64,000 nt of DNA. Source: Pegea sp. RAD2-039. Lineage: Eukaryota; Chordata; Thaliacea; Salpida; Salpidae. Position 1 is the first letter of the stretch. Every line of letters begins with the position of its first letter. Positions 3,934 through 62,349 of the stretch are shown here, one piece after another. The translations under genes were made by a program, and so were the position numbers. The stretch spans positions 744,001 to 808,000 of the forward strand of contig JAQGEQ010000177.1 in assembly GCA_034620365.1 (NCBI GenBank), written 5' to 3'. Under the pieces are notes generated by a model. The model was not told where the DNA came from and did not search any database. It was given only the letters and a program-made list of their open reading frames with translations.

Positions 3934-6900
3934 ATGAAGTCTATACTTGAAAGTAAGTTTTTGATATAATTTATTTCTTTGTTGAGATATAATTATATCT
4001 AAGTTATTTTTTAATAAGTATTTTCTTTTATAAATTTTTCAAGTGCAAGTGGTTAGTTAGCTTTATGACTTTGTAGCTTATTATACAAATTAAAATGTAC
4101 TATATATCTACAATAAAAGGTAAACTGTTTGAATCAATTGAATTTGAACTTAAATAATTTGTAAACAGTTGTCAACTATATGAATATTGTTTTTTAGGAC
4201 ATATATCATTTGCTCATCTCATTGCTGTTGTGGTGGTATCTTTTATGATAATAGAAGAGACTTATTGTGCTAATTCTTTATGTAAAGGTTTTGGTATTGG
4301 TGGTAGAGATAAAATACCTGCTTGTCTTGGTCTTGTAAGTAAACAATTTGTTTATATATATATATCACTAAAAGTTTTAAAATCTTTTTTCTTTAATCTG
4401 ACAGCTTTTTAATGTTTATGAACAATAATTTCAATTTTTCACAAATGTTTTCATTGATTTTCAATTTAGAAAAAATGTTAATAGATTACCTGTTTTGTAT
4501 AATCTTCTAAATAGTTCGAAGAATTAAAAGTTTCTTGAAATTATAAATAATTTTGATAAAAATATTGAGTCTTATAGTTTGATTAATTGTTTATCATATA
4601 GCTTTTTTTCTACTCATACAAACCTTCTTCATTTTATAAATTTCTAATAAAAAAATATTTCAGCCAACAGCTGAAGATGGCCGTTGTAACTTGACTTGTG
4701 ATAAAGTTAGCAGGTGCTTCTCTTTGTATAGCAATGTTACTGGAACACTACAGAGATCATATGAAGGTTGTTGGCTGGAATACATCCCATGTACTAATAA
4801 GTAATTTGATAATTCGAATGTTTTTGAATCAAATACTTTCCAGTCTGTTTTTATAATTACTTTTTTTTCAGAATAAATTGTCTTTATTTTAATTCTGATA
4901 CACCTATGTACCACTGTAGCTGTTGTGGTGATTACTGCAATGAGAGAACCTATGGCAAGCAGGAAATTCTGGAAAGTCTCCCTCCCGCTAAACATGGAAT
5001 AGCAGATGCAACTACTGCTTCAAGTAACATTTAATTTAGTCTCAATAAGTCTTTGAGTAAGTTTCTGTTTGGTTCTACAGAAAACCTTGGTATTCTAGCT
5101 CCAGGACCTCCAATAATGATCACAATTACTGTAATATTTGGAGGTCTAGCAGCTGTATGTCTGGGTGTCATGTTTTTTTGTTTTTACAACATTAGGAGAC
5201 AGAGACATAAGATGTTGCCAGGAAGTGACAATTGTAGTGTTGTAAGTTTGACTTCAACAAAATTTGCTGTTCAAGATGTGTTCAAAATTAAAATATTTAG
5301 ATTATTCTAGAATAGTTTGCTTCATATTGAATCAATTTGATGTAGGAAACACCGCACAGTGGAGACACTCAAACTACTCCTATATTAGAAAAAGATCGGA
5401 TCTCCGTTAATCGAATGGATATAGATTTGCCAGAACTAGCTGAACTAAAAGCTCGTGGAAGATTTGGTTGTGTTTGGAGAGCTGAGTTGCCTGATCAAAC
5501 TAGTGTTGCAGTGAAGATATTCCTTATGCAGGTGACTAACAGCATTAATTAATCAATCTTTTATATCTCAGTTTTCTCATTTCTTACTTTTATCATGACA
5601 AATATTCCGATTTTCAGGATAAAGCTTCATGGTTGAATGAGCAAGACATCTTCAACACCAATTTGGTCAACAATCACCCATTTATATTAAAATTTATCAC
5701 CACTGCTACTCGCAACGCTGGAGTAGAAAAAGAACTTTGGCTGATTACAGAGTTTCATAAGAAGGTTTATCAGCAGTTTTTTGCAATTATTTTTCGCTAA
5801 TGTAGATACAGTTTATTCACTGTGAACACTCGAATGTCGAAACTTATGAATTGTTGCATTCTATAATATTTATTTTTCTTTTTTATGAGTTTTCTCTTAA
5901 CAGACTTAAAAGAAAATTAATAATTTATTTGAATAGTTTAACTTATATTTTAAAACTTATTTGTCAGGGTTCATTGTCTGATTTTTTGTACAAAGAGACA
6001 ATGACTTTAGCAACAGCATTGAAATTTCTAAAAAGTATGGCGAATGGACTTGCTTTCCTGCATGAAGATATCACAGAAAATAAGTCAGTTTCAAAATGAA
6101 CAAATATTTATTTCGACCAACACCTATTCATTTCTCTGTTTAGCTAATTTTTATTAAAATAGATTAAGAAGTTAGAGATTTAAAATTTGCAAAATCTAGA
6201 TAATTCTATGAAATGAAAAATTCCTGGAATCAATTCATCTGTTTCTACTGATGATGATCATCAATATTTCTTTTTAAATTACAAATGATCTTTGCTACTC
6301 TTAAAATTGCCGCTTCAACATTAATAGTTTTGAAGTAGCTTCTAAAAACATGATACAAAATAAAATCGGAAATATTTCTTTTCTAAATATCATCTATTAA
6401 TAGAAATCTCTAATAATTAAATATCTACTCATAAATAAGAAATTTCCAACAAATTCTAGAAGTGATTCCAGCAAAGGATTAAAACCAGCAATTGCTCATC
6501 GAGACTTTAAAAGCAAAAATGTCCTTGTCAGGTCTGACATGACTGCTTGTATTGCCGACTTCGGTCTTGCAATAAAGTTTGTCCCTGGTCAAAACACAGG
6601 AGAAAGTCATGGACAGGTGGGTGTGCTTGAAGTTTCTTTTTAATTTAATTTAATTACTTCATCTACTTTCAAGTAATCAGCATAAAGTATGTAGAATTCT
6701 TGATAAAAGTTCTTTATTTTGAAGGTTGGTACAAGGCGGTATATGGCTCCAGAAGTATTAGAAGGAGCAATTAACTTTCAACGTGATGCTTTTTTGAGGA
6801 TTGACATGTATGCTTTTGCATTGGTCTCATGGGAAGTATTGACTCGTTGTTCTGACATACCAGGTAAAGTTCAAACGTTATATGTTCAAATGTTTGTTTA

Positions 6901-7485
6901 AAACAATAACCTGAGCAGGCGGACATACGATCAACTACCAACTTCCTTATGAGTTGGAATTTGGTAACCAACCAGTGATGGAGATTTTAACCAACTATGT
7001 GGTTGACAAAAAAAAGAGACCGATCATAAAACAAGAATGGCGTGATGATAAAGTGATTATTACTCTCATCTAAGTCCTATTTGTTAAACTCTTCTTTGTA
7101 TCGTCAGGTTATTAATGTAATCTGTGAAACTATTGAAGAATGCTGGGATAATGATGCAGAAGCAAGACTTCCCGCAGGATGTGTAGAAGAGAGATTGAGT
7201 GGTCTTATTGATCATCTTAATATGTCTTCTTCGGATTTGATCATCAGCAAATCTTCAGTTTGTCCAGATGTTCAATTACAAGTTAGTTTTTGGTTGAGGT
7301 TGTATTTAGGTGAAAAGTAAAAGTTTTTATCTAAAAAATTCAGTATCTTCTGTTTCAGCGTTACTCTGATTAACAAATCTTATTTTAATCTTCAGAATTT
7401 AATTAACTTGAAGAAGAATCAAATGGATATAGCTGAGGAGGAAGAACTGGCTTTGATTAATAAAGAAATGGTTTTAGATGTTTAG
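3934..7485 (+). CDS. acvr2: Activin receptor type-2-like serine/threonine kinase receptor, 13 coding exons
   Basis: Type II TGF-beta superfamily receptor: at the plasma membrane it binds activin/BMP-like ligands and phosphorylates type I receptors. Coding exons: 3934-3952, 4198-4334, 4664-4800, 4872-5023, 5081-5241, 5346-5531, 5618-5764, 5968-6083, 6460-6616, 6725-6863, 6919-7052, 7108-7281, 7396-7485. They join in frame to 582 aa. A signal peptide lies at residues 1-25 and a Cys-rich extracellular domain follows, ending in a [10 protein letters not shown] box near 113-122. A membrane segment covers about 159-184. The kinase starts near 235 with ARGRFGCVW, then AVK (Lys259), HRDFKSKN (365-372), DFG (385-387) and APE (412-414). 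The stretch [18 protein letters not shown] is typical of type II activin receptors. At 582 aa it is longer than vertebrate ACVR2 (about 510). The start is inferred: exon 1 holds only six codons plus one base, chosen because it completes a signal peptide with a good GTAAG donor. Confidence 0.93.
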
Positions 7486-30215: not shown

Positions 30216-31601
30216 CTATAATAGTCGAGGAGTGGCTGAACCCAGATGAGTTTTAAGCTCATCAAGACTTGTTTTGATAAGTTTTGCTGGAACAGTTGAC
30301 CCTAGTCTACGGTACGCTTCAATCCTGCAATTAATTTTTATTGAAATCATTTAGAATGAAAGATTTATAACTACTTGGAGAAATTAAATTGCATGGAGAA
30401 AAGTACAATCAACAAGAATTTAATAGATTAAATAAGTTTTAAGCCAAGTATAAGAACAAATTCAATTAATATAACTGAATACAACCTTCAAGAGATACTA
30501 TTCTTTACTTGAAATATATTTGTGTTTATAAAGTTTAATAACTTGCAAAAAAAGTGAACCTGTGTGCACCAGAAAAGGAGTAAAAATAATTTCCGCCTTT
30601 TTCTCCAGTTACCCACAACACGTCAACAGCAGGAATATCTATTTCCTTTTTAGACTCCTAAATCAGTAAAGTTGAAAAGAAAACTTTATTATTTTTCAAT
30701 TTCTTTTGGAAATAGTTTACCAATTTAAAAAATTATGATTAGCTAAGTAAAAGAATCAGCTGATATTTTTAATACAATACAAAATTCTTTAGGTTAATCA
30801 AACGAAATTAATGTATGCAAAGACTGTAGAATATATCATTTTGACAAAACCAACTTTCATATAAAGCTGTACTTTAAATATTATTAAATTATTTCAATTA
30901 CATTTTGCAGTTATTAAAAAAAGAAGAATTTCAGTTACATACTTTCATAATTTGTAACAAATCTACTATCTTATTTTCATTAATTTCTTCTTCAAAAGGA
31001 CAAATTAGTTCTTTAATAGGCATATGATGAATTTCTCCATCAGCTTGATCAATTCTATTCTCTAATGAACTATTTGATTCCCTAAAATCTAATTCCTTTA
31101 TTTGTGATTGCTTGAACCCTGTTCCGAAATTCGAACCATACTACAAAGATAACTTTCTAAAGCTTGGGTAAAGTAATTGATTTGTTTTTAAAAGTAAAAT
31201 ATTTGTCATTATAGTTTTTAAATTGGTTTATTAATTCTATATTGTATCTTCACAAAGTATATTAATCGAATGTATAAACTAAAAATAAAAAAGTTAGATT
31301 TTGTTGTGCATAAAAATACTTTGCTTAAATTAATAGTTTATAAAATAATAGTTAAAATAAACTAACCTCATAGTCATTCTCAGCAGTGGATTTTTTTACA
31401 GAAAATCTTATGGAAGGCTTTTTTGTTTTTCGACACTAATAAGGTCGAAACAAAGTTGTACAGTTAATATAAAAAATTTATTTTTATTCATCTAATTTAA
31501 GTTTGGTGACGCTTAATTTTTTTTTTTGAAAATAAATAACTTTTATTTACCCTAATGCAAGAGATAAGAATTGAAGAAAACAGTATTCCAAGTAAAATCA
31601 T
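30216..31601 (-). CDS. srxn1: Sulfiredoxin-like protein lacking the catalytic cysteine, 5 exons
   Basis: Sulfiredoxin uses ATP and one Cys to reduce sulfinylated 2-Cys peroxiredoxins. Minus-strand exons 31551-31601, 31367-31435, 30943-31140, 30560-30657 and 30216-30324 give 174 aa (human 137). The fold matches throughout: [61 protein letters not shown] and the end SATPRLL. The active-site loop reads SFSGAHR where sulfiredoxins have FGGCHR, so Cys99 (human numbering) is Ala. Human Arg51, Ser64 and Thr68, which contact ATP, align with Cys, Asp and Ile. Lys61, His100 and Arg101 are kept. Residues 2-16 are hydrophobic ([15 protein letters not shown]) followed by basic residues: a membrane anchor or organelle signal. 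The introns are intact and the frame is open, so this looks like an expressed pseudoenzyme rather than a dead gene. Confidence 0.9.
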
Positions 31602-33299: not shown

Positions 33300-35580
33300 A
33301 AGACGGTTTGCATACACAAACATACTGACATCATCTACTGCTACTAATCTTCTGATGAGGTCTTCAATAAAAATTATTAAGAGAAGGGACCTAGAAAGGA
33401 ACCCTGAGGAACACCACTGGTGACTTGACTACGAGTATTAAAGGTATTTTAAATGATTAGTCATGTGATTGTGAATAATATGCTCTTCAGTTCTGCAGAT
33501 AACTGAAGTCAGCGATAACTGAAGTCAGGTCTGTAGTTAAGTGCGGTGTTTCTGGGACTATTTTTATAAATAGGAGTAATGGTAGCTTTCTTCTAAATTT
33601 GTAGAACTCTTCCTCGCCTCAGAGTGATATTAAAGAGTAGCGATAAAGGTAGTGATATAGAGGAATTAGTTTTTCTTTAAAACAAAGCAGAGATCTGATC
33701 TGGGGTGTTGGAAACTGATAACTTTAAAGAAGAAATAATCTTAGTTACCATATCGACCCTTATGTCAGGATTTTTTATCTCAAGGACATTTGTGAGAATA
33801 TAGGAGAGGGAAGAGAAGGGGTATTGCCATCATCGGTTATAACAACGATATCAAATTGATTGTTTAGCAATTCAGCTTTATTCTCCGGTTCCATCACAAG
33901 CTGGTTGCTGTTATCAAGCAAAGAAGGTATTTGAGATCTCGCCGTAAGCTTGCTAGGGTTTCTTGTTAGGTGAAGATAAGACTGCACTTTCGCTTCCTAA
34001 GTAGAAATTAGAAATAGATTTCTTGTAAACTAAACAAAGATCTTTGTACAGAGATTTGACGGAAGGGTCTGCTTTAGTTTGTTTGTATAGGAGGTTTTTT
34101 AAATGTGTTAAATTCCTTAAATATTTGGCCTTTTTTGACTCTATAAAATGGTATGAATTTTTCAATTTACTCTTTAATGATTTTGGTAAACCGTGAGTAA
34201 ATAGTATTGGTGTATTTGGTAGAGTTGAAAATAGAAATTCAGTCAACACCCAGTAGAAACTTGTTTATAGCATTATAATTTCCACGATAAAAATTCTGTT
34301 TGCTTCGAGTTTTAACGTTCATGGAAAAATTTTGATAGAGCTTGAATTCAATCATATTGTGATCGCATGTCAAAGCAAAGGGCTCTTTTTGATTTACGTA
34401 GATAATGTTCTCAGGTTTTGATGTGATAAGAAGATCCAAAGTATTGCCACTAACTTGGATCGGAAAGGTAGCCATCTGAGATAGATTATTGGCATCGAGG
34501 AAGCTTACAAGGGCATGACTTAGAATGGATGAATTATTATTGTCGCTATCCAAGTTAAACGATTTTCCCATAAATGCTAAATTCCGGTTATTCCAATCAA
34601 TTTTACTAAAATTAAAATCCCCCAAAATATATAACTCAGGAAACACAACACTCTTCAGAACCTTTAATAAGGCGTTAACAGTAACCTCATTATTAATTTT
34701 TGAGGGTGGTAGATAGGTACATATAAAACGAGAAAATTTGGACTTTGAGTAATGAAAATCGAAAGCGATAATCTCAAACCCTGGACAATTAATGACAATT
34801 AATTACGTAAATACCGCCGCTTCTATTATACAGTCTGTCACAACGCAAAACACAAAAAAGATTACCGTCAACCAGAAAAGAATCAGGATACACCGGTTTC
34901 AACTAAGTTTCAGCAATAAAAACAAATGTGAAATCTTGAAAATGCAAAAAAGCTTTCGATTAGAAAATTTTGTTAATAATTGATCGCGTGTTGAAGACCA
35001 TACCTAATGTAATAGAAGAGTTGTTTTTTTGATAGTTGTGAGATTCGATGATGGGCTTCTGTGAACTGATATCTTTGGCTGGAAGAATGGTATTCACGAT
35101 TGTGTTCGGAGAGAATTTATTTGCAACTTCCGTTTTAAAAAAAAAACCTTGACAATTCTCAAGACCCATGATGGACCTCAAACTTTGTTTTTGAAATCAG
35201 TTGGTTGTTCTTTCTGACCTCTGTTATACGCTTCTTTTAGAAGACGCATATTTTCTAAGCAACCATCTTCACATATATCATGTGCTAATCTAATGTGCTT
35301 GAATTTTCTGTCAAGTTTGATTTAAAAAAACTTAGCAAGAAACTTGCATTTGTTCCAACTTTTCTGAAAAGACATTTTTAGCGGTCTTTGATGATCTGAG
35401 GTCTTCGCTCCAAGTCTGGCCATTGGTACCCTTTGAATGAAACCATGAACTTAGAGCACATTTGATTTACAAACTTATTGTCATCATCTTCATTAGTCTC
35501 ACAGACATTATGTGTGCATTGATTGAATAAAATTAAGAAAGTATTTTTTATATTGTGGGAAGTTTCTGAAATCAATAACA
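33300..35580 (-). mobile_element. Decayed non-LTR retrotransposon (CR1/L2/Rex1-like LINE)
   Basis: Read on the minus strand, the pieces occur in LINE order. At 35200-35580 lies a broken frame resembling the end of an ORF1 (VGTNASFL, FFKSNLTENSSTLD). At 34239-35181 is an apurinic-type endonuclease: ITLGMVFNTRSIINK, FSRFICTYLPPS, YILGDFNFSKIDW, GNTLDLLITSKPENI and TCDHNMIEF. At 33775-34249 is the linker to the reverse transcriptase (KAKYLRNLTHLKNLLYKQ, KAELLNNQF). At 33300-33750 is reverse-transcriptase debris: ATITPIYKNSPRN, NYRP, then GVPQGSFLGP. Frames change at least three times and stops interrupt the RT. The RT stretch between NYRP and GVPQG is only about 40 residues, so most of the palm is deleted. 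The element cannot be autonomous. Confidence 0.88.
34239..35181 (-). pseudogene. LINE endonuclease domain remnant
   Basis: This is the best-preserved part of the retrotransposon. The endonuclease family motifs GDFN and CDHN are intact. The longest uninterrupted part is 135 codons (34239-34646), and the frame upstream (34647-34760) continues through TYLPPSKINNEV. Frame breaks occur between about 34760 and 34960 and again near 34240. The catalytic fold would cut the genomic target in a live element. Here the breaks make the protein incomplete. Confidence 0.8.
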
Positions 35581-36530: not shown

Positions 36531-40922
<4,392 letters not shown>

Positions 40923-43693: not shown

Positions 43694-45784
43694 TTACACT
43701 TGAGTTTCTTCAATAAGATTTGTATCTTCTAGAAAAGTAGTTGATGACGAAGAGGCTAAATAATTGTCATCTAAAATATCATTTTCATCATCTTGAGAGT
43801 CTTCTTCATCTTCTTCATCATCTTCAAGATCTTCAACATCACATTCCTTCCAAGGCTCGCGCACATTTAACTTAATTGGCATAAAAGCGCTGAGTAGTGT
43901 TTCTTCTGATACAGAACTTACCATGAGACGAAAATCATCTGATAATTGGCGAAAAGAAGGTCTATTGATCGGATTTTCTTCCCAACAATCCTTCATAAGC
44001 CTATAGAGGACTGGAGAAGCAAACTCAGGCTGCTCAAGACGGTTCCCACTTCTTAAATATTGAAGCAGCTCATTGGTTCTTACTCCTGCGTAGGGTGATT
44101 TCCCCAAAGTAAAAATCTCCCACAACAGGATACCAAAAGACCAAACATCAGTAGAATGAGTGAAGAGGTTTTCTGACATTGCTTCAATAGCCATCCACTT
44201 AAAAGGAAGATGTCCTTTCGTTTTCTTCCGATAGTAATCTTTAACTTTAATATCACGTGACAAACCAAAGTCTGAAATCTTCATTGTAAAATTTTTTGTC
44301 ACTAAAATGTTTCTGGAAGCTAAATCGCGATGAATACATTTCTTCTGGACCAGGAATTCCATCCCATTAGCAACTTGATGTGCTGCGGACAACAAGTCTC
44401 GATGAGTGAGATCGTGGAATCGACGAGTTGTATTTTGGGCTACTTCAGGATTATCGATTCGATTGTAAGGACGATTTCTTCGTAGAAAATCTCTTAAATT
44501 ACCTTCTTCAGCATACTCAATCACCAACCAAATCAAATTGTCATTGTTACAAACACCCAACAAACTAGTGACGTTGATATGGTTACCTACTCGCTTCATT
44601 TGCTTAAACTCTCGAATCAGATCTTGCCGATCACGTTCACTACTAGAGTCTTTCAACATCTTCACAGCACATACAGTGTTAATGATGGCCCCATCTTCAT
44701 TTGATTGAATTAGGTTGGCTCGATACACTTGTCCAAAAAATCCTTCATCTAAACGTTCATCAAGTACGATATTACTCCGATCAATTTTCCATTTCACATC
44801 GATAGTCACGTGATCATTGGCGGCAATTTGCATATCATTAGTAAAGAAGACAGTCCTCCACGCAGGATTGTGGGCGTACATTCGGCCTGGTTCTTCCAGT
44901 TCTTCCATTTGTGGGATACAGTCAAGATCATGGATCTGATAAATGCTGGATTTAAATTTACGTCGCATCCAAAACTTAGCATTTCCGAAAAAGATCAAAA
45001 CCAAAACAAAGGCGACCAAAATCCACCAATAGTTGGAAAATAATTTCGGAGGATGGTTCCGAACATAAAGCTCAAATTCTGTGAAGTCTCCACCGAGCCA
45101 ATTAGTTGCTAGGCAACGGTAAAGACCTGCGTCGTTCATTGTCACTTCTTTTACAGTTAATGTGGTCAATCTTTCATTGCTTTTTGTGCCTGTGACGTTT
45201 TGAAGCAGCTCTTTTGTGATTGTGACCCTCTCATTATCTTCCAATTTCAGAAACTCTTCCCCCTTTTTAGCTCCAAATGGCATTTTACTCCACGTCACGT
45301 CATCACTACTATAAGCTTTGCATTTTAAAGTAACGTTTTCACCGACAAGATGGGTCTTATTCGATGAACCCTGAGATGAGAGTAGAGGTCGAATTGAAGG
45401 TCTCATATAGACTTGAAGATCAAAAAGTTCAATTCGCTTCCCTCTCTTTGTTGTTACTTCACATTTGTAGAGGCCACTGTTGTCTATGTGAACTCTTTTG
45501 ATGTTTAGAGTTTGATTCTTATGTCTGAATCGATACTTGGGGTCTCCTTTCCTCTTGACAATTGGCTGGTTGTCAACCCACCAAGCAATTCTAAATTGAG
45601 TTGAGTTTTCAGAACATTCAAACGACACGTCATTGCCAGATGGCTCTTTGTACACTACAGCTGATTGGCTCTTTACTTCCTCTTTACTGATCTCTTTGCT
45701 GAGTATTGTTGTCGTGTTCATCTCAGCAGAATTTGGTTTAAGACTCCAATTTAGTGTGATCAAAATTATGGCAAAATAATTCAT
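43694..45784 (-). CDS. fgfr: FGF-receptor-like receptor tyrosine kinase, intronless
   Basis: Single-exon 696-aa receptor tyrosine kinase. Signal peptide is 1-20. Ig domain 1 has Cys57-Cys108 with the YKC motif, and Ig domain 2 has Cys155-Cys224 with DAGLYRC. Membrane helix is about 252-268. The kinase spans about 336-622: glycine loop DEGFFGQV (346-353), Lys375 in AVK, Glu392, catalytic loop HRDLASRN (485-492), DFG (505-507), paired activation-loop tyrosines YY (517-518), and DVWSFGILLWEIFTLGKSPY. The short kinase insert and the YYRKKTKGHLPFKWMA segment point to FGFR. Unlike vertebrate FGFRs there are two Ig domains, not three. The APE motif reads AIE. The tail (650-672) is almost all Asp/Glu. 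Expected signalling is Ras/MAPK after ligand-induced dimerisation. The absence of introns, while neighbouring genes have many, suggests a retrocopy or intron loss. An acceptor-like CAG lies 35 nt upstream of the ATG. Confidence 0.93.
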   Translation of the reverse strand: MNYFAIILITLNWSLKPNSAEMNTTTILSKEISKEEVKSQSAVVYKEPSGNDVSFECSENSTQFRIAWWVDNQPIVKRKGDPKYRFRHKNQTLNIKRVHIDNSGLYKCEVTTKRGKRIELFDLQVYMRPSIRPLLSSQGSSNKTHLVGENVTLKCKAYSSDDVTWSKMPFGAKKGEEFLKLEDNERVTITKELLQNVTGTKSNERLTTLTVKEVTMNDAGLYRCLATNWLGGDFTEFELYVRNHPPKLFSNYWWILVAFVLVLIFFGNAKFWMRRKFKSSIYQIHDLDCIPQMEELEEPGRMYAHNPAWRTVFFTNDMQIAANDHVTIDVKWKIDRSNIVLDERLDEGFFGQVYRANLIQSNEDGAIINTVCAVKMLKDSSSERDRQDLIREFKQMKRVGNHINVTSLLGVCNNDNLIWLVIEYAEEGNLRDFLRRNRPYNRIDNPEVAQNTTRRFHDLTHRDLLSAAHQVANGMEFLVQKKCIHRDLASRNILVTKNFTMKISDFGLSRDIKVKDYYRKKTKGHLPFKWMAIEAMSENLFTHSTDVWSFGILLWEIFTLGKSPYAGVRTNELLQYLRSGNRLEQPEFASPVLYRLMKDCWEENPINRPSFRQLSDDFRLMVSSVSEETLLSAFMPIKLNVREPWKECDVEDLEDDEEDEEDSQDDENDILDDNYLASSSSTTFLEDTNLIEETQV

Positions 45785-45819
45785 GTTGATTAATTATAGT
45801 TACGAATAAAAAATTAGGA

Positions 45820-51320: not shown

Positions 51321-51539
51321 TTAGCATGGTTTTGCCCCTAACACCATGTTTTGGGCCCAATCTAATAATAACTGCATACCTTTGTGGAGAAAGTTCATAA
51401 CATCAACACATCCATTACAGCAAGCACTGAAAGGAGATACAATCACCCAGAATATAGCACAGATCAAAGCAATTGGAATTGCAATGATTAGGATCAAGAA
51501 GAACCAAAAGATTGAAAAAAACCAATTACAACTTGCCAT
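51321..51539 (-). CDS. Hydrophobic Cys-containing micro-protein, paralogue A (72 aa)
   Basis: One of four related small proteins here. Residues 5-35 are almost entirely hydrophobic and Trp-rich (FFSIFWFFLILIIAIPIALI) with a central Pro, so they may form a membrane hairpin or a single long helix. Next comes the Cys cluster SPFSACCNGC, and then a conserved amphipathic part FLHKGMQLLLDWAQNMV ending in KPC. Cys residues next to a membrane segment could be palmitoylated (inference). Similar short proteins of unknown role occur in other invertebrates as far as I recall, without an established name. The acceptor TTTACAG lies 10 nt before the ATG, pointing to a spliced 5' leader. It is closest to paralogue B, 0.4 kb upstream on the same strand. 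Confidence 0.8.
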   Translation of the reverse strand: MASCNWFFSIFWFFLILIIAIPIALICAIFWVIVSPFSACCNGCVDVMNFLHKGMQLLLDWAQNMVLGAKPC

Positions 51540-51949
51540 TGCATTTCACCTGTAAACAAACGATCTTATTTGTTTTGTTGAATAATATATTTGCGTGTTG
51601 TAAGTAGCTTTTTCCATTTTTGTGTTCTTCTTTTATAATTTTTGTTTATTTTACTCAAATATTCGCCCATTTTTACAAAAGTCAAAAGCACACCTTCTAA
51701 GCAGGGTTAAAAGTGTGAAGCAAACTTTGAGAGCGTTGAAGTAGTAGAAGACTAACAAAAAGTTCAATTATAATAGCAATTAAATAAACAAATTTAAAAA
51801 ATGATAAAATTAGAATTTATATTTTAAATACGAAAACAAGAGAGATTTATTGCAAAAAATCTTTAAATAAATCAAAAGTTAAACTTTGTGAATTAAGAAC
51901 AAATAATAAGTTATCATCAGTTCTTGAGAAGTCTTTAGATATAAAAGGT

Positions 51950-52171
51950 TCAGCAAGGTTGTTTGCCGTTAACCATGTGTTGTGCCCAGTCCAGTGGTAG
52001 CTGCATGCCCTTGTGAAACACTTTCAATACATCCACACACCCTTTACAGCATGCACTAAAAGGGGCAACTATTACCCAAAAAAGGGCACAAATCAATGCA
52101 ACTGGAAGAGCGATAATAATTATAAGAAAAAACCAAAAAATTGACCATAACCAAGAACAGTTATTAGCCAT
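51950..52171 (-). CDS. Hydrophobic Cys-containing micro-protein, paralogue B (73 aa)
   Basis: Same architecture as A: N-terminal CSWLWSIFWFFL, hydrophobic stretch with Pro, Cys cluster APFSACCKGC, then VFHKGMQLPLDWAQHMV and terminal QPC. By eye roughly two thirds of positions are identical to A, and the genes are adjacent and co-oriented, so they are recent tandem duplicates. The reading frame is conserved while third positions differ, which supports coding function. The acceptor TTTTCAG lies 13 nt before the ATG. Confidence 0.8.
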   Translation of the reverse strand: MANNCSWLWSIFWFFLIIIIALPVALICALFWVIVAPFSACCKGCVDVLKVFHKGMQLPLDWAQHMVNGKQPC

Positions 52172-52184
52172 AAGTTTCAGTAAT

Positions 52185-55100
52185 CTGAAAATAAAGTTTA
52201 TCGTATAAACTTGTATATTTTAACTTTCTTAATCTTTATTAAAAGCACTTTCCACAATCAAATAGTAAACAAATATATAATTCTTATTACTATATCTAGA
52301 TTAAGCATGTCGTAATTGTAACTTTATTTGGTTTTAGTCGGCTATTTATTTACTACAAATACATGAAACTATAAATAATTTTAATAATTCAACAGCTCAT
52401 TAACTGAAGGATAACAGATTATTTATAAATTTGTTGATGATACAAAACACTTACTTTATTTGGAACTTTGTTTATATATCTTCATGTATAACTTTTGTTG
52501 TCAAAATTCTTTGATAAAATGTTCGAGACTTTGTGCTGAGTGGTTTTTGTTATCTCATTTAGGTTACAGTTAAAGTTCTAATCAAAACAATAAACAAAAA
52601 AGTTTGTTAGATTATTGATAAGTTAAATAACATAATAAAAGTTTTAAAGAATGAAACTTTACATGACGTTTAAGTTTTAGTTTTATTAAATCTTTATAAA
52701 TTTTGCTGAAACTGTATCAATCTTAATAGCTCAACTTTTTAAACTAACAGAATCTTTAATAACATTTTAGTACATTGAAAACTTAAAACAACCTTTTAAA
52801 GCATAGATTTTAAAAGAGGTATTTATTTGCTTTAGGTAAAGAACAAAAGTTGAAACAAGTTAATAAAGAAGACCGCTAAGTCACAAGAAAGCATAAAGCA
52901 ATAGTTCATTTATTGAAGTTCCAACATAATTCTTTTATAAGTAGTTCAACTTTATAGGGACAAATATTACCATATGGAAATAACCATAATTCATTCGTTT
53001 TATTACATAACTGGGCGTTTTACAAAGCAATTAACTAAAAAAAAACGTTTAATTCCAAACTGTAGAAACTAAAGACGTGAAAGTTTAAGTAGAATTCTAT
53101 TTTGCTTTATTTTCAAGTATAACATTTTGTGCGAAACATTTTTGGCTTATTTGATTATTTGTTACAAAACGATTAAAGTAGAAATCAATTGATTGAATTT
53201 GTTGAAGTAGAACTTGAGCGAAAAAGTTTTCAACAGCAAACTTTTATACATACAAGTTTTATAAAAGTAAAATATTTTATATACAGTATCATACTCGAAT
53301 AAATATATCATTTTGAACGAATTTGATATCAATAGAAAAAAGTTTGCAAAAACCAATAGTAAGTTCTTATTTAACTTTAATAAAAAACAAAATCTCATAT
53401 ATATATCAAAATAAAAAATCCTATTATACTTCAGAAATAAGTTAATGCTGAATTTAATCAAATATATGATACCGTCGCTTGTAACAAACATAATAGCTTT
53501 TTATTATTAGTTTAAGCTTAAAGTTCATATAAAAACTTTGCTAAAAGACCTTTGTTGTATGTTTACTGAGACAAATTTGTTTTCAAAATCATTTGATTGT
53601 CTCTTGATCTTGAACATATCTGAAATTTGTTCAGATGTTACAGTCGACTCAAAAGTATGTATGATTAAACTGTTTGCGGAATATCTGTATTTACTTATCA
53701 AATGTTGACCTGACTATTGACTTATTTTATCAGTCTTGATGAAAAGGCTCACAAAATATTTTAAAAGTAATCAATCACAATATTACTGTTTTATCAAAAC
53801 TTCTAAAAACTTTCCAGAATGTTATAAACTTTAAGTTTTCTTAAAAGACTGTATACAGATGAAGATATATACAAATTTGATCTATACAGCTTGTATATTT
53901 TTCAAAGATACCTTTATAAAACTTTTTAAAAAGTGTAATTAAGTCAAAGTGTTTATTGATTAAACAGTTTATAAACAATTTTTCTGATTTGATATATCTT
54001 ATTAATACTTTTTGTAGATATAATTAAAACTAACCGATTTACATTCTTGATTTGATATTGAAAGTCTATAAGAAGGTTAAAAACTCCCATATACTTAATT
54101 ATTACATAATTTTATAAGTCGATTTATAACTAGATCTAAAAATTAATTCATTCAAAAAGTAGAAAAAAAAACATTTTTCTGTCGATAAAATAATCAAATA
54201 ATAAATCAAATTGCCATAATTTATTTCTAATGAAAACTATTTTATCTTAACTTTTTTTACAGGTTATTTGTGAATGGCTAAATAGCCGTAGAAACTTAAA
54301 GAATTAACAAAGACCAATATTAAATGCTTGTAAGATAAAGTAAATATAAGTTTAAACATTCATAGAATTAAAATACATTTACATAAGAGCACTTTATGAA
54401 ATGAATTTTGATAAAATTTGATAATCAATTCTTTTTCTAGAAAATCTTTAACTTTTTTGTCTTTTATTGTATTGAGTTTCTTTTTTACTTGTTAATATTC
54501 AAAAATTGTTTCACTTATTAGCTCACATAATATATTTCTCGATAATATATTGCTACTTAAATTTGACTTCTGAAAAGTAAATTTTAAACATCTTGAAACA
54601 CTAATTTAACAATTGACAAACCAAAATAATCTAACTTACTTAATTTGTGTTACTATCTCACTCACCAAATAATATAAAATGATATAACTTTATAAAGAAG
54701 ATTTGTATACTTAAGCTTAAAATTGAATCCTTGTGTCAACTATTAAAACATCTAATGAAGATTATATCAACACATATAAAAAGGAGCTAACCGATTATAT
54801 GCCTAGTAACCAAGCAACAAACATATTACAAAAAGCTTCTCTAACCTTATTTTAACTTGCGGTAAAATTCTTAAAGGTTCAATAACCAATTGAATCTCTA
54901 ATGATAACATTAGACAAAAGGTATCTATATTCTCTATCTTGTTTGTTGTCACCACTTTATCAAAATCTAACTTTGTTGTAACAGACAATAAAAGTTCAAA
55001 AACTAAAACTCACTTTCTAGGCCTCACCCAAAAGTAATCAAAATTTAATCTTTATGATTAAGCACATACAACAAACTGGAAAATTAAGCATTGAAGTTAA

Positions 55101-55394: not shown

Positions 55395-55610
55395 CTAATC
55401 ACATGGATTTTTTGCAGATACCATGTTTCGAGACCAATCCAATATAAAATGTTGTCCTTTTTGTAGAAAGTTCAGTACTTCAGTGAAGCCACGGCAACAG
55501 GCGGTACAAGGTGCAAGAAGTACCCAAAGAATTGCACACAATAGACTAATAGGGAAAGCAATGCAGAGAACTGCAAGGAACCAAAATATTGCCCACACAA
55601 AATTAGCCAT
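55395..55610 (-). CDS. Hydrophobic Cys-containing micro-protein, paralogue C (71 aa)
   Basis: Shares the family plan: VWAIFWFLAVLCIAFPIS, then APCTACCRGF, then FLQKGQHFILDWSRNMV and terminal NPCD. The Cys cluster keeps ACC but loses the following GC, which becomes GF, and an extra Cys appears in the hydrophobic stretch and before TACC. The acceptor CAACAG lies 7 nt before the ATG. It is more distant from A and B than they are from each other. Confidence 0.78.
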   Translation of the reverse strand: MANFVWAIFWFLAVLCIAFPISLLCAILWVLLAPCTACCRGFTEVLNFLQKGQHFILDWSRNMVSAKNPCD

Positions 55611-55619
55611 TCTGTGTCT

Positions 55620-58600
55620 GTTGTTGAAAAATAAAGTTCGATTAATAGAAGGAAGAATTTAAAACTAATTAAATAAAATTAAAATAATTGTTAGTTAATT
55701 AACTTTACAGACTTAGTTATAGTTGTTTATTTGACATATCACTGAATCAATATATATTACAATCAAGTTTTCTAAGTAATCACAAGTATAAAAAAGCAAT
55801 CTAAAATCTTGTTCTTAAATGTTTCAAAGTTTTCAACAAGTAAACACAACAAATTTTATATAGTTAAATAACTGTTATATCTATTAAATAAATCTAATCA
55901 AAATTAGATTTTTATTGTAACCACTTCTCAAAGAAAAATTCTTTAAAAATTAATTTTGATTTAAGTAATCAAACACAAAACATTTTTCTTTTATTTTTTT
56001 AATTATATAATGTTATAACAACAAGTTGTTGTTGTTAAAACGATTAAAAATATTTTAAAGAAAAAAATTATCTCAAAATATTTTGTAAGAATATTATAAA
56101 TTTCTGCTGTATCATTCATACAACCCACAGTTATAAGTTAATCTATATTTACAGTAAGCTGCATCATTAAAAGCCTGAATTATACAACAATTTAAAAAAA
56201 GCACGAAATAGACAAATTAAGTAATAAGCTCCTAAAAATGAATAATATACATTTTATCAAGAAATAAAACTATATTATTTGCTGCAAATTAACTTTTAAA
56301 ATCAACAATAAATAGTTTCAAATCAACTTCAGGCTGTAATAAACACTTTTTAGAAAATAATAATAAATTTATATAAAAAAGTTCATTTGTAAAAGGTTTC
56401 AAAATAATTTATAGTGAATTGATTTTAACTTAGCCGAATTATTCAGTTTTACTAATTTAAAATTCTTATTTCTAATTTGGAAACCTTAAACCAAAGAAAC
56501 TTACAACATTTTAAATTGTTATGTTTTGAATTGAAAAAGTAAATAAGATAACATGCAGCAATTGTTACATCATTATTATCAGTTCGATGAAAAACTGATT
56601 TAATATCAATAATTAGAAGTATTATTATACATTTTTTATAATTCTGATTTAGTTTTCTCAAAGATAAATCAAAGTATTTAAATCATACAAAATATTCCTG
56701 TTTCTAATTACAGATTAATTATGGTAGAAATAATGACATCATATTTACTAAAACTAAAAACAGTAAATAACTTTTGATAAATAAGCTATAAAAACAAAGT
56801 TTTTATATTTCATAACCTTAATATTGTGATGTAATCGAATAAAAATAACATAAAATTAGATAAATAAAAAATTATCTTTTAATTTAAAAGTCTCAACCAA
56901 ATATATGAAATTTAGAAAATATTTGTAGTTTATTTAATGGTAAAACACAATGAAAAAATTATATCACAAAGTAAATAAAGAATAAACTAATTTAATTTTC
57001 TAACTAATATTTCCCGAAAACTATTATATTCAGATAATGTAATTTGTATTTCACAAATCTATGAAACTACAGACATTCAAAAAAATAATCAGAGAAAGAA
57101 CCAATTTATGAAATCTGAACCATTAAAAAAGCTAAATATAAAGTTCAAAGTTTATACAAGATTAAAAAATAATAAACAATTCATTAGATGAGTTAAAATA
57201 AAACAATATTTTCTCTAATATTTCCATAGAGCTGAAATATCAATAATATTAAAAATAGAAAACTTTTCTAAAATCAAAATATAGTTTTATCAAACTACAA
57301 AAATTTAACAGATTAGTTATGAGATTAAATTGAATATTATAGAAAAGTTGTTTATGTTTATATAGACAACGCCCATGAATTTTTAATTTTTTTACAGCTT
57401 AATATAAAAAATAAGTTTTGTGATTTAAAATATTTATTTAGTTATGACGTTAGTGTTTTTTAGTTACAAAAGTATTGGAATTAAAAAGTTAAGGGTAAAA
57501 CTGAAATCTTTTTTATTATTCTAAAAGAATATACAGCAATAAAAAATATGAATAGAAAACTGATTTGTGAAATCTACAAATTATAACTAAGAAGTGATTT
57601 ACTGATTAACAAAAATAACTTTTTTTTGTCAAGTTACTGAAGCATAAAAGTTGTTTTATATGAGAAATTTTTTATCAGCTAAAATAATTAAAATACTTTA
57701 TCTATGACTTCTTTCATTGATACAATCACTAACTTCAATTCAAATATGCCAAAGTACATTATTTTAAATTATTATGCTGTACTGAATTAAAACTAATTAA
57801 AAGCATAAAAAACCATTATCACCAATTACAGTAACAACATTTACTGGTCTACTTAAAGGCTTTTGCATTTTACTAAAAAATTCAAGTAGTTTTTAGTCTT
57901 CATTTTTTTCTGTCTGTAAGCTGATATATGATGACTGTCAAAATACTTCCTTAAATTTTCAGTTTATAAACTGTTAACAGCTTATCAGTAGCTGTAAGTT
58001 TATTTTTATTGCCAATTTCAGGTAAAAGGAATTAAACATTTCTATTGCTGTTACTGTTAAGGAGAAAGTCGTTTCTGTCAAAGATGACATATTCAGTAAA
58101 AATAGAAATTTGTCAACTCCAAATAAATCATTTTCCAGATTAAAAACCTGTATTTTGTGTAATTAAAAGACAAAAATTAAATAATACTTGAAATAATGTA
58201 GTAACAATGAATTGGTAAATGAAAACATCATAAGTTTTTTTCAGCTCCATATGACGTCATCAGTATACTTATTTTCTCCTAAAGTCAAGTTTTAGACTAA
58301 ATGAATAATCAATTGTAAAAACTTAAGGTCCAAAAATTTGAGTTATACAAATTTCATTACCTTGTAATTATCATGTAGAAGTTACTTTGGTTTTTACAAA
58401 TGATAATCATTTGGTTCTTAATCTTACCTTTCTACTTATCACACTGTAATTTCATAAACTTACAAAAACTATTAATCATCTCTCACAGAAAACATTTTTA
58501 AGTCAATTTCTTGATTTATCAGTACTAGTCTAGTAGATTAAATATATCTTTTTATCTAATTAAATAACTTGGTATATTTTTATCTTTCATTAAAATTTTG

Positions 58601-62086: not shown

Positions 62087-62302
62087 TTAACCGCCACAGC
62101 TTTTTCCTTCAACCATTCCTTCCGCGAAATAAATAGGAAGTTTTATTCCTTTTTCTAAGAACTCCACTAAACCTTTACATGGGTCTAAGCAAGCTGTAAA
62201 AGGCAAGCAAATGATATAAAAGGCAGCAATGAATCCAGCAACTGGCCACCCAACAATCAGTAGACCCAAAAGCCACAACACTGACCACCCATTACAGTTC
62301 AT
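62087..62302 (-). CDS. Hydrophobic Cys-containing micro-protein, paralogue D (71 aa)
   Basis: The most divergent of the four. It keeps Trp residues at the start (GWSVLWLLGLLIVGWP), the Pro in the hydrophobic stretch, LPFTAC, then DPCKG, then LVEFLEKGIKLPIYFAEGMV and a terminal Cys (SCGG). The KG and MV positions are shared by all four. The nearest acceptor-like site is GTTTTTTAG, 47 nt before the ATG. It lies 6.5 kb from paralogue C on the same strand, so it is an older duplicate. Function unknown. Confidence 0.78.
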   Translation of the reverse strand: MNCNGWSVLWLLGLLIVGWPVAGFIAAFYIICLPFTACLDPCKGLVEFLEKGIKLPIYFAEGMVEGKSCGG

Positions 62303-62349
62303 TTCAATTTTTCAACAAGTAAAATTTAGGATAAGAAATATATCAGTAT

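Follow-up and report, generated by a model that had tools for sequence, protein, structure and literature searches.

A sulfiredoxin-like gene of Pegea sp. RAD2-039 with alanine in place of the catalytic cysteine

The 64,000-nucleotide stretch of Pegea sp. RAD2-039 DNA analysed here (the window) contains a five-exon sulfiredoxin (Srx)-like gene whose product carries the catalytic loop FSGAHR, with an alanine codon (GCA) at the position of Cys99 of human SRXN1. Srx is the enzyme by which over-oxidised peroxiredoxins (Prx) are repaired. Searches of the assembly (105.7 Mb, 387 contigs) revealed no further Srx, and at least three typical 2-Cys Prx were identified in it. We tentatively favour, at a little under an even chance, a pseudo-sulfiredoxin able to bind Prx but not to repair them. 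The original prediction had proposed a non-catalytic, perhaps Prx-binding protein; the lost nucleophile and the finding of a sole Srx fit this proposal, in which Prx binding stays putative.

The coding sequence comprises 525 nt in a single open frame, and all four introns have GT-AG borders (Table 1), as expected from the five exons that had been predicted to splice in frame. Splicing exon 4 at its nearest upstream GT was rejected by eye, as this donor led to a frameshift and a stop. In a phmmer search against the PDB, the last 95 residues of the protein matched six distinct sulfiredoxin sequences with E values of 9e-21 to 5e-20 over residues 2-94 of 95, and nine distinct PDB sequences in all matched the domain at E<=10; a sulfiredoxin match at E ~1e-20 is far beyond chance. 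Alignment with human SRXN1 over human residues 45-136 gave 38 identities among 91 paired residues. Judged from its sequence, the product is a Srx homologue that lacks the catalytic Cys of the family, and at most a putative sulfiredoxin enzyme.

Table 1. Coordinates of the sulfiredoxin-like gene and its exons in the window, and peroxiredoxin loci of the assembly
Feature	Position or locus	Strand	Evidence or remarks
Srx-like gene, five exons, 174 aa	30216..31601	-	Spliced open frame and PDB sulfiredoxin match
Putative exon 1 (doubtful), hydrophobic N-terminus	31551..31601	-	Starts with ATG, in frame, ends at a GT donor
Exon 2, basic linker	31367..31435	-	AG/GT borders; codon score in the true frame >95th percentile of background
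Exon 3, linker and Arg51/ATP half of the Srx domain	30943..31140	-	Alignment with human and 50 cyanobacterial Srx
Exon 4, DVLW onward, catalytic loop, two bases of the Arg101 codon	30560..30657	-	Ala for Cys99
Exon 5, from the third base of the Arg101 codon through the stop; contains PAKL and GSATP	30216..30324	-	
2-Cys Prx	C293		Single open frame, GGLG, end VEYFESAN
2-Cys Prx	C35		GGLG, last exon ends HYFSKQE
2-Cys Prx	C32		GGLG, last exon ends KLKYFSKNKGEL, joined by eye
Prx6-like gene	C34		PF00578 match

Coding potential was assessed by codon scores trained on one gene, the long receptor kinase frame in the window. In the true frame, the scores of exons 2-5 lay beyond the 95th percentile for stop-free background sequences of approximately equal length, with a background of only 8 stretches in the case of exon 3, and with one wrong frame of exon 5 passing as well. 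Exon 1 did not score above background, resembling non-coding DNA in this respect, and had no homology support. Some upstream exon is likely, because exon 3 has its first Met immediately ahead of the PIKEL strand. Targeting to a membrane or organelle, as had been proposed for the hydrophobic N-terminus, depends on exon 1 and is unsupported, given that this exon shows neither homology nor a coding signal.

No match to PF02195 (ParB_N) was obtained with the window protein or in the assembly, results that say little, since the human SRXN1 core escapes the model, too. The current Pfam version (PF02195.25) gave the human core no match at E<=1, and one cyanobacterial Srx fell slightly short of the cut-off. 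Surveys filtered by the ParB_N domain may under-count animal sulfiredoxins, some reported absences included.

As a yardstick for the substitutions, cyanobacterial Srx were retrieved from named genomes by means of a composed probe, and the best 80 of 255 relatives, 50 of them distinct, were retained; the search peptides lacked the GCHR loop, and the ranking of the 80 favours likeness to the GCHR-carrying probe. All 80 loci of this selection (best 80 of 255 relatives) read FSGCHR, so the Ser in the loop of the window protein is ordinary and Cys→Ala is the real change. The alignment reproduced Arg51→Cys, Ser64→Asp, Thr68→Ile and Cys99→Ala, just as first described. The alignment to human residues 51-99 had been taken as ungapped; this was wrong, since 51 residues of the window protein face 49 human ones, and a two-residue insertion follows human residue 74 or 75, where it leaves the named sites unaffected. 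Besides Arg51→Cys, Ser64→Asp and Thr68→Ile, exon 3 carries Asp58→Asn, which had been overlooked. All 50 distinct cyanobacterial Srx carry Arg51, Asp58 and Cys99, and human shares Arg51 and Asp58 with them. Position 64, by comparison, is occupied by Ala in 43 of the 50 cyanobacterial sequences and by Ser in 3, and position 68 is Ser in every one. Of the ATP contacts thought to be lost, Ser64 and Thr68 thus do differ from human, but the human residues are not universal in Srx and their replacement is the weaker change; Asp58→Asn is a stronger loss. Lys61, Gly98, His100 and Arg101 are kept. Among 30 positions common to human and >=90% of the cyanobacterial rows (all of which human keeps by construction), the window protein keeps 18 and changes 12, some of them conservatively.

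Divergence from human Srx is lopsided. For residues 45-72, identity between the window protein and human was 7/28 (25%), below the agreement of all 50 cyanobacterial Srx with human (mean 48%, 39-57%, n = 50). For residues 78-136, identity was 30/58 (52%), with a mean of 46% (38-50%) for the cyanobacterial sequences, and for residues 78-129 its value of 26/51 equalled the best cyanobacterial one; residues 73-77 around the insertion were excluded from this half-by-half comparison. In one half, the Srx-like protein is farther from human than each cyanobacterial row; in the other half, it equals the closest of them. The contrast within the protein itself is modest, with Fisher p = 0.03 for residues 45-72 versus 78-129 and p = 0.06 for the 30 shared positions. 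The half containing Arg51 and its helix (residues 45-72) is presumably the one that forms much of the ATP pocket. Uniform decay would not produce such a pattern, but one sequence cannot prove selection.

The main rival to a pseudo-sulfiredoxin is a dying gene: Srx would be dispensable in this lineage, with sestrin or a slow turnover of hyperoxidised Prx being enough, and the gene would be intact only because its loss is recent. The change of 12 of the 30 shared positions suits such relaxed constraint and counts against the favoured reading, and a sestrin match (PF04636, C6, E 2.4e-52) spanning introns is present in the genome. Sensitive Prx without Srx was reported in 10 of 19 animals, with C. 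elegans lacking even the domain (PMC9925728), and no reduced survivorship was reported for srx-mutant flies (PMC8071185). The reading frame and splice borders are intact, however, coding bias is kept in exons 2-5, and the C-terminal half is as near to human as the nearest cyanobacterial Srx; the three base changes between a Cys codon and the Ala codon would make a very recent loss unlikely. Overall, we consider a dying gene possible but rather unlikely.

The missing cysteine could also reflect an artefact or an incomplete picture: the assembly may be wrong at this codon, or a canonical Srx may be unassembled, split by an intron within the motif or too diverged to be detected. GCA differs in three bases from either Cys codon (TGT, TGC), so that a single read error cannot explain the alanine. 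A sequencing error whose correction would restore TGT, considered with the original prediction, is very unlikely, as it needs three base errors in one codon, and two invariant residues are lost in another exon as well. No alternative Cys-bearing exon (TGY-CAY-MG) was found on the gene strand between 29600 and 32400. Further Srx-like exons in the window were sought by tblastn with human and cyanobacterial Srx, which recovered exons 4 and 5, all further matches being weak (E >=0.28); queries from the N-terminal half missed exon 3 itself, and the search is insensitive for that half.

A second Srx was not found when the assembly was searched with the window protein (E<=0.001), which gave three matches only, all to domain exons of the same gene, or with the human core (E<=10), which gave two, to its exons 4 and 5. 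No canonical GGCHR sulfiredoxin was thus detected, with the limit that the human-core search missed exon 3 of the known gene, so a much-diverged second gene could escape it. The DNA pattern GGNGGNTGYCAYMG (GGCH-R/S type) had 15 matches in the assembly versus 5 for the reversed control; several were mutual copies, and no Srx sequence lay beside any of the 15 in the short flanks from which context was judged (90 bases before, 60 from the motif start). The fragmentation into 387 contigs and a search for COX1 that gave no match would fit a hidden gene. Taking the codon and the searches together, we regard an artefact or a hidden canonical Srx as very improbable.

The potential partners of the protein are encoded in the same assembly. 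Among 15 PF00578 matches, three loci are 2-Cys Prx, each with the GGLG and YF motifs, and one is Prx6-like (Table 1); no GGLG was found on either strand at the other PF00578 loci, two of which carry a thioredoxin-type WCGPC motif. GGLG and YF mark the sensitivity of Prx to hyperoxidation (PMC9925728). Between two exons that encode one of the 2-Cys Prx, and on the same strand, a 325-aa open frame was observed (L155, G000:C35:159500-165200, reverse 1612-2589) with RRPSTR-type repeats, 8 of them exact RRPSTR; it may be a nested gene, an alternative exon or a chance frame.

In the accepted mechanism, the sulfinate of Prx attacks the γ-phosphate of Srx-held ATP (PMC12093155), and a covalent Prx-Srx complex via Cys99 then forms (PMC12093155, PMC8230665). 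Canonical repair is not expected of the window protein because Cys99, Arg51 and Asp58 are all absent. We propose that the gene descended from an ordinary animal sulfiredoxin. It retains the overall domain sequence, the GxHR frame of the phosphate loop and some of the hydrophobic surface on which the Prx active site is received, but no longer has the nucleophile, Cys99, or the Arg51 and Asp58 portion of the ATP site. As no thiosulfinate could form via Cys99, canonical reduction of Prx-SO2H would fail, as judged from the known mechanism.

The hydrophobic face on which Prx docks consists of L53/L82/F96/V118/Y128 (PMC12093155). In the window protein these positions read F/L/F/I/H; two are thus identical and two still hydrophobic, and one is changed, Leu53, Val118 and Tyr128 being the altered residues. 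The best PDB match was a chain of 3HY2, a Srx-PrxI-ATP-Mg complex (PMC12093155), which scored approximately two bits over Cys-bearing Srx chains and shows GAHR in the alignment; its first rank is no doubt due to the shared Ala. As an analogue, 3HY2 demonstrates that Srx with Ala99 can hold peroxiredoxin and ATP, in a complex made with engineered partners. Docking on 2-Cys peroxiredoxins would most likely be retained in the window protein, as in the Ala99 human Srx of 3HY2. A locally unfolded peroxiredoxin might then be held or capped unrepaired, and the protein may serve as a regulator or sensor of hyperoxidised Prx. A broader version, in which a conserved animal pseudo-Srx replaced the repair enzyme and captures hyperoxidised 2-Cys Prx unreduced, turning the sulfinic form into a stable, protein-bound signal, is in our view unlikely.

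A different use of the altered site would be a rewired active enzyme, in which ATP first activates the sulfinate and Cys51 or an outside thiol then finishes the repair without Cys99. A new Cys stands in place of the invariant Arg51, at a position that we take to lie in the ATP pocket near Cys99, and Lys61, Gly98, His100 and Arg101 are kept. The first step is, moreover, the attack of the sulfinate on the γ-phosphate of ATP and not an attack by Cys99 (PMC12093155). A redox role of Cys51, as raised earlier, is a bare possibility. ATP binding itself, however, would be doubtful without Arg51, Asp58 and the human Ser64 and Thr68. We know of no rewired Srx that uses a replacement thiol, and consider such an enzyme quite improbable.

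Several other features of the window were noted. A LINE-type element fragment (34239-34802, minus strand; Exo_endo_phos_2, E 1e-11) lies approximately 2.6 kb upstream of the Srx-like gene. A receptor tyrosine kinase of ~696 aa with two Ig domains is encoded at 43694-45793 (minus strand) in a single uninterrupted frame, whereas its neighbours look intron-rich. ORFs at 4158-7320 (plus strand) resemble by eye exons of a TGF-beta/activin type II receptor serine/threonine kinase, and the one exon scanned gave a weak kinase match. At 37869-40922 (plus strand), a double zinc ribbon (one ORF scanned) is followed by ORFs that are ankyrin-like by eye, an arrangement that resembles DZANK1. Four ORFs of ~75 aa on the minus strand (51321-51545, 51950-52219, 55395-55658 and 62087-62311) appear related by eye; each is strongly hydrophobic in its first half and carries repeated Cys and a D-W-A-like or similar motif in its tail. 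The two that were scanned had no Pfam match above cut-off. A link to a viral contig was rejected, as it consisted of a single 17-residue match that was taken as chance.

Animals that keep easily over-oxidised Prx without a recognisable repair enzyme have been raised as a puzzle (PMC9925728). The Srx described here is the sole one found in its genome, lacks the nucleophile, has diverged chiefly in the Arg51/ATP half and coexists with at least three sensitive Prx that carry both motifs. It thus offers a tangible case for asking if Srx acts beyond repair, and also if hyperoxidation is left unrepaired on purpose. In the open-licence literature, neither a natural Cys-to-Ala Srx or a named pseudo- or inactive sulfiredoxin nor a sulfiredoxin C99A was found. 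Animals without a recognisable working Srx are already in print, and the window protein is a variant of the Srx family.

Compared with human SRXN1 and the 3HY2 chain, the window protein keeps Lys61, Leu82, Phe96, Gly98, His100 and Arg101, and shares Ala99 with 3HY2; it differs in that its Ala99 is natural and that Arg51, Asp58, Ser64, Thr68 and Tyr128 are also changed. With cyanobacterial Srx it has the FSG-HR loop in common, including the Ser, and a His at position 128, whereas the cyanobacterial proteins have FSGCHR in 80 of 80 loci and Arg51 and Asp58 in 50 distinct rows. Other NTP binders of the ParB fold are ParB, SerK and SbnI (PMC12704722), which resemble the window protein in a GxxR phosphate motif without Cys. 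PF02195 gave 38 matches in 12 cyanobacterial genomes; from 30 loci fetched, the motif was readable in 21, as GERR, GLHR or GGRR in 14 and as the Srx motif GCHR in 7. Unlike ParB, SerK and SbnI, the window protein is Srx-like in its remainder, and other ParB domains were not seen in its 174 aa. A further precedent is a Srx-type ParBc domain without F(S/G)GCHR, reported in 7 of 19 animal species; there, too, the catalytic motif is missing although Prx sensitive to hyperoxidation are retained (PMC9925728). The excerpts of that study name no residues for these domains, which are putative Srx orthologues; the gene described here has a defined Cys→Ala exchange with the rest of the loop intact.
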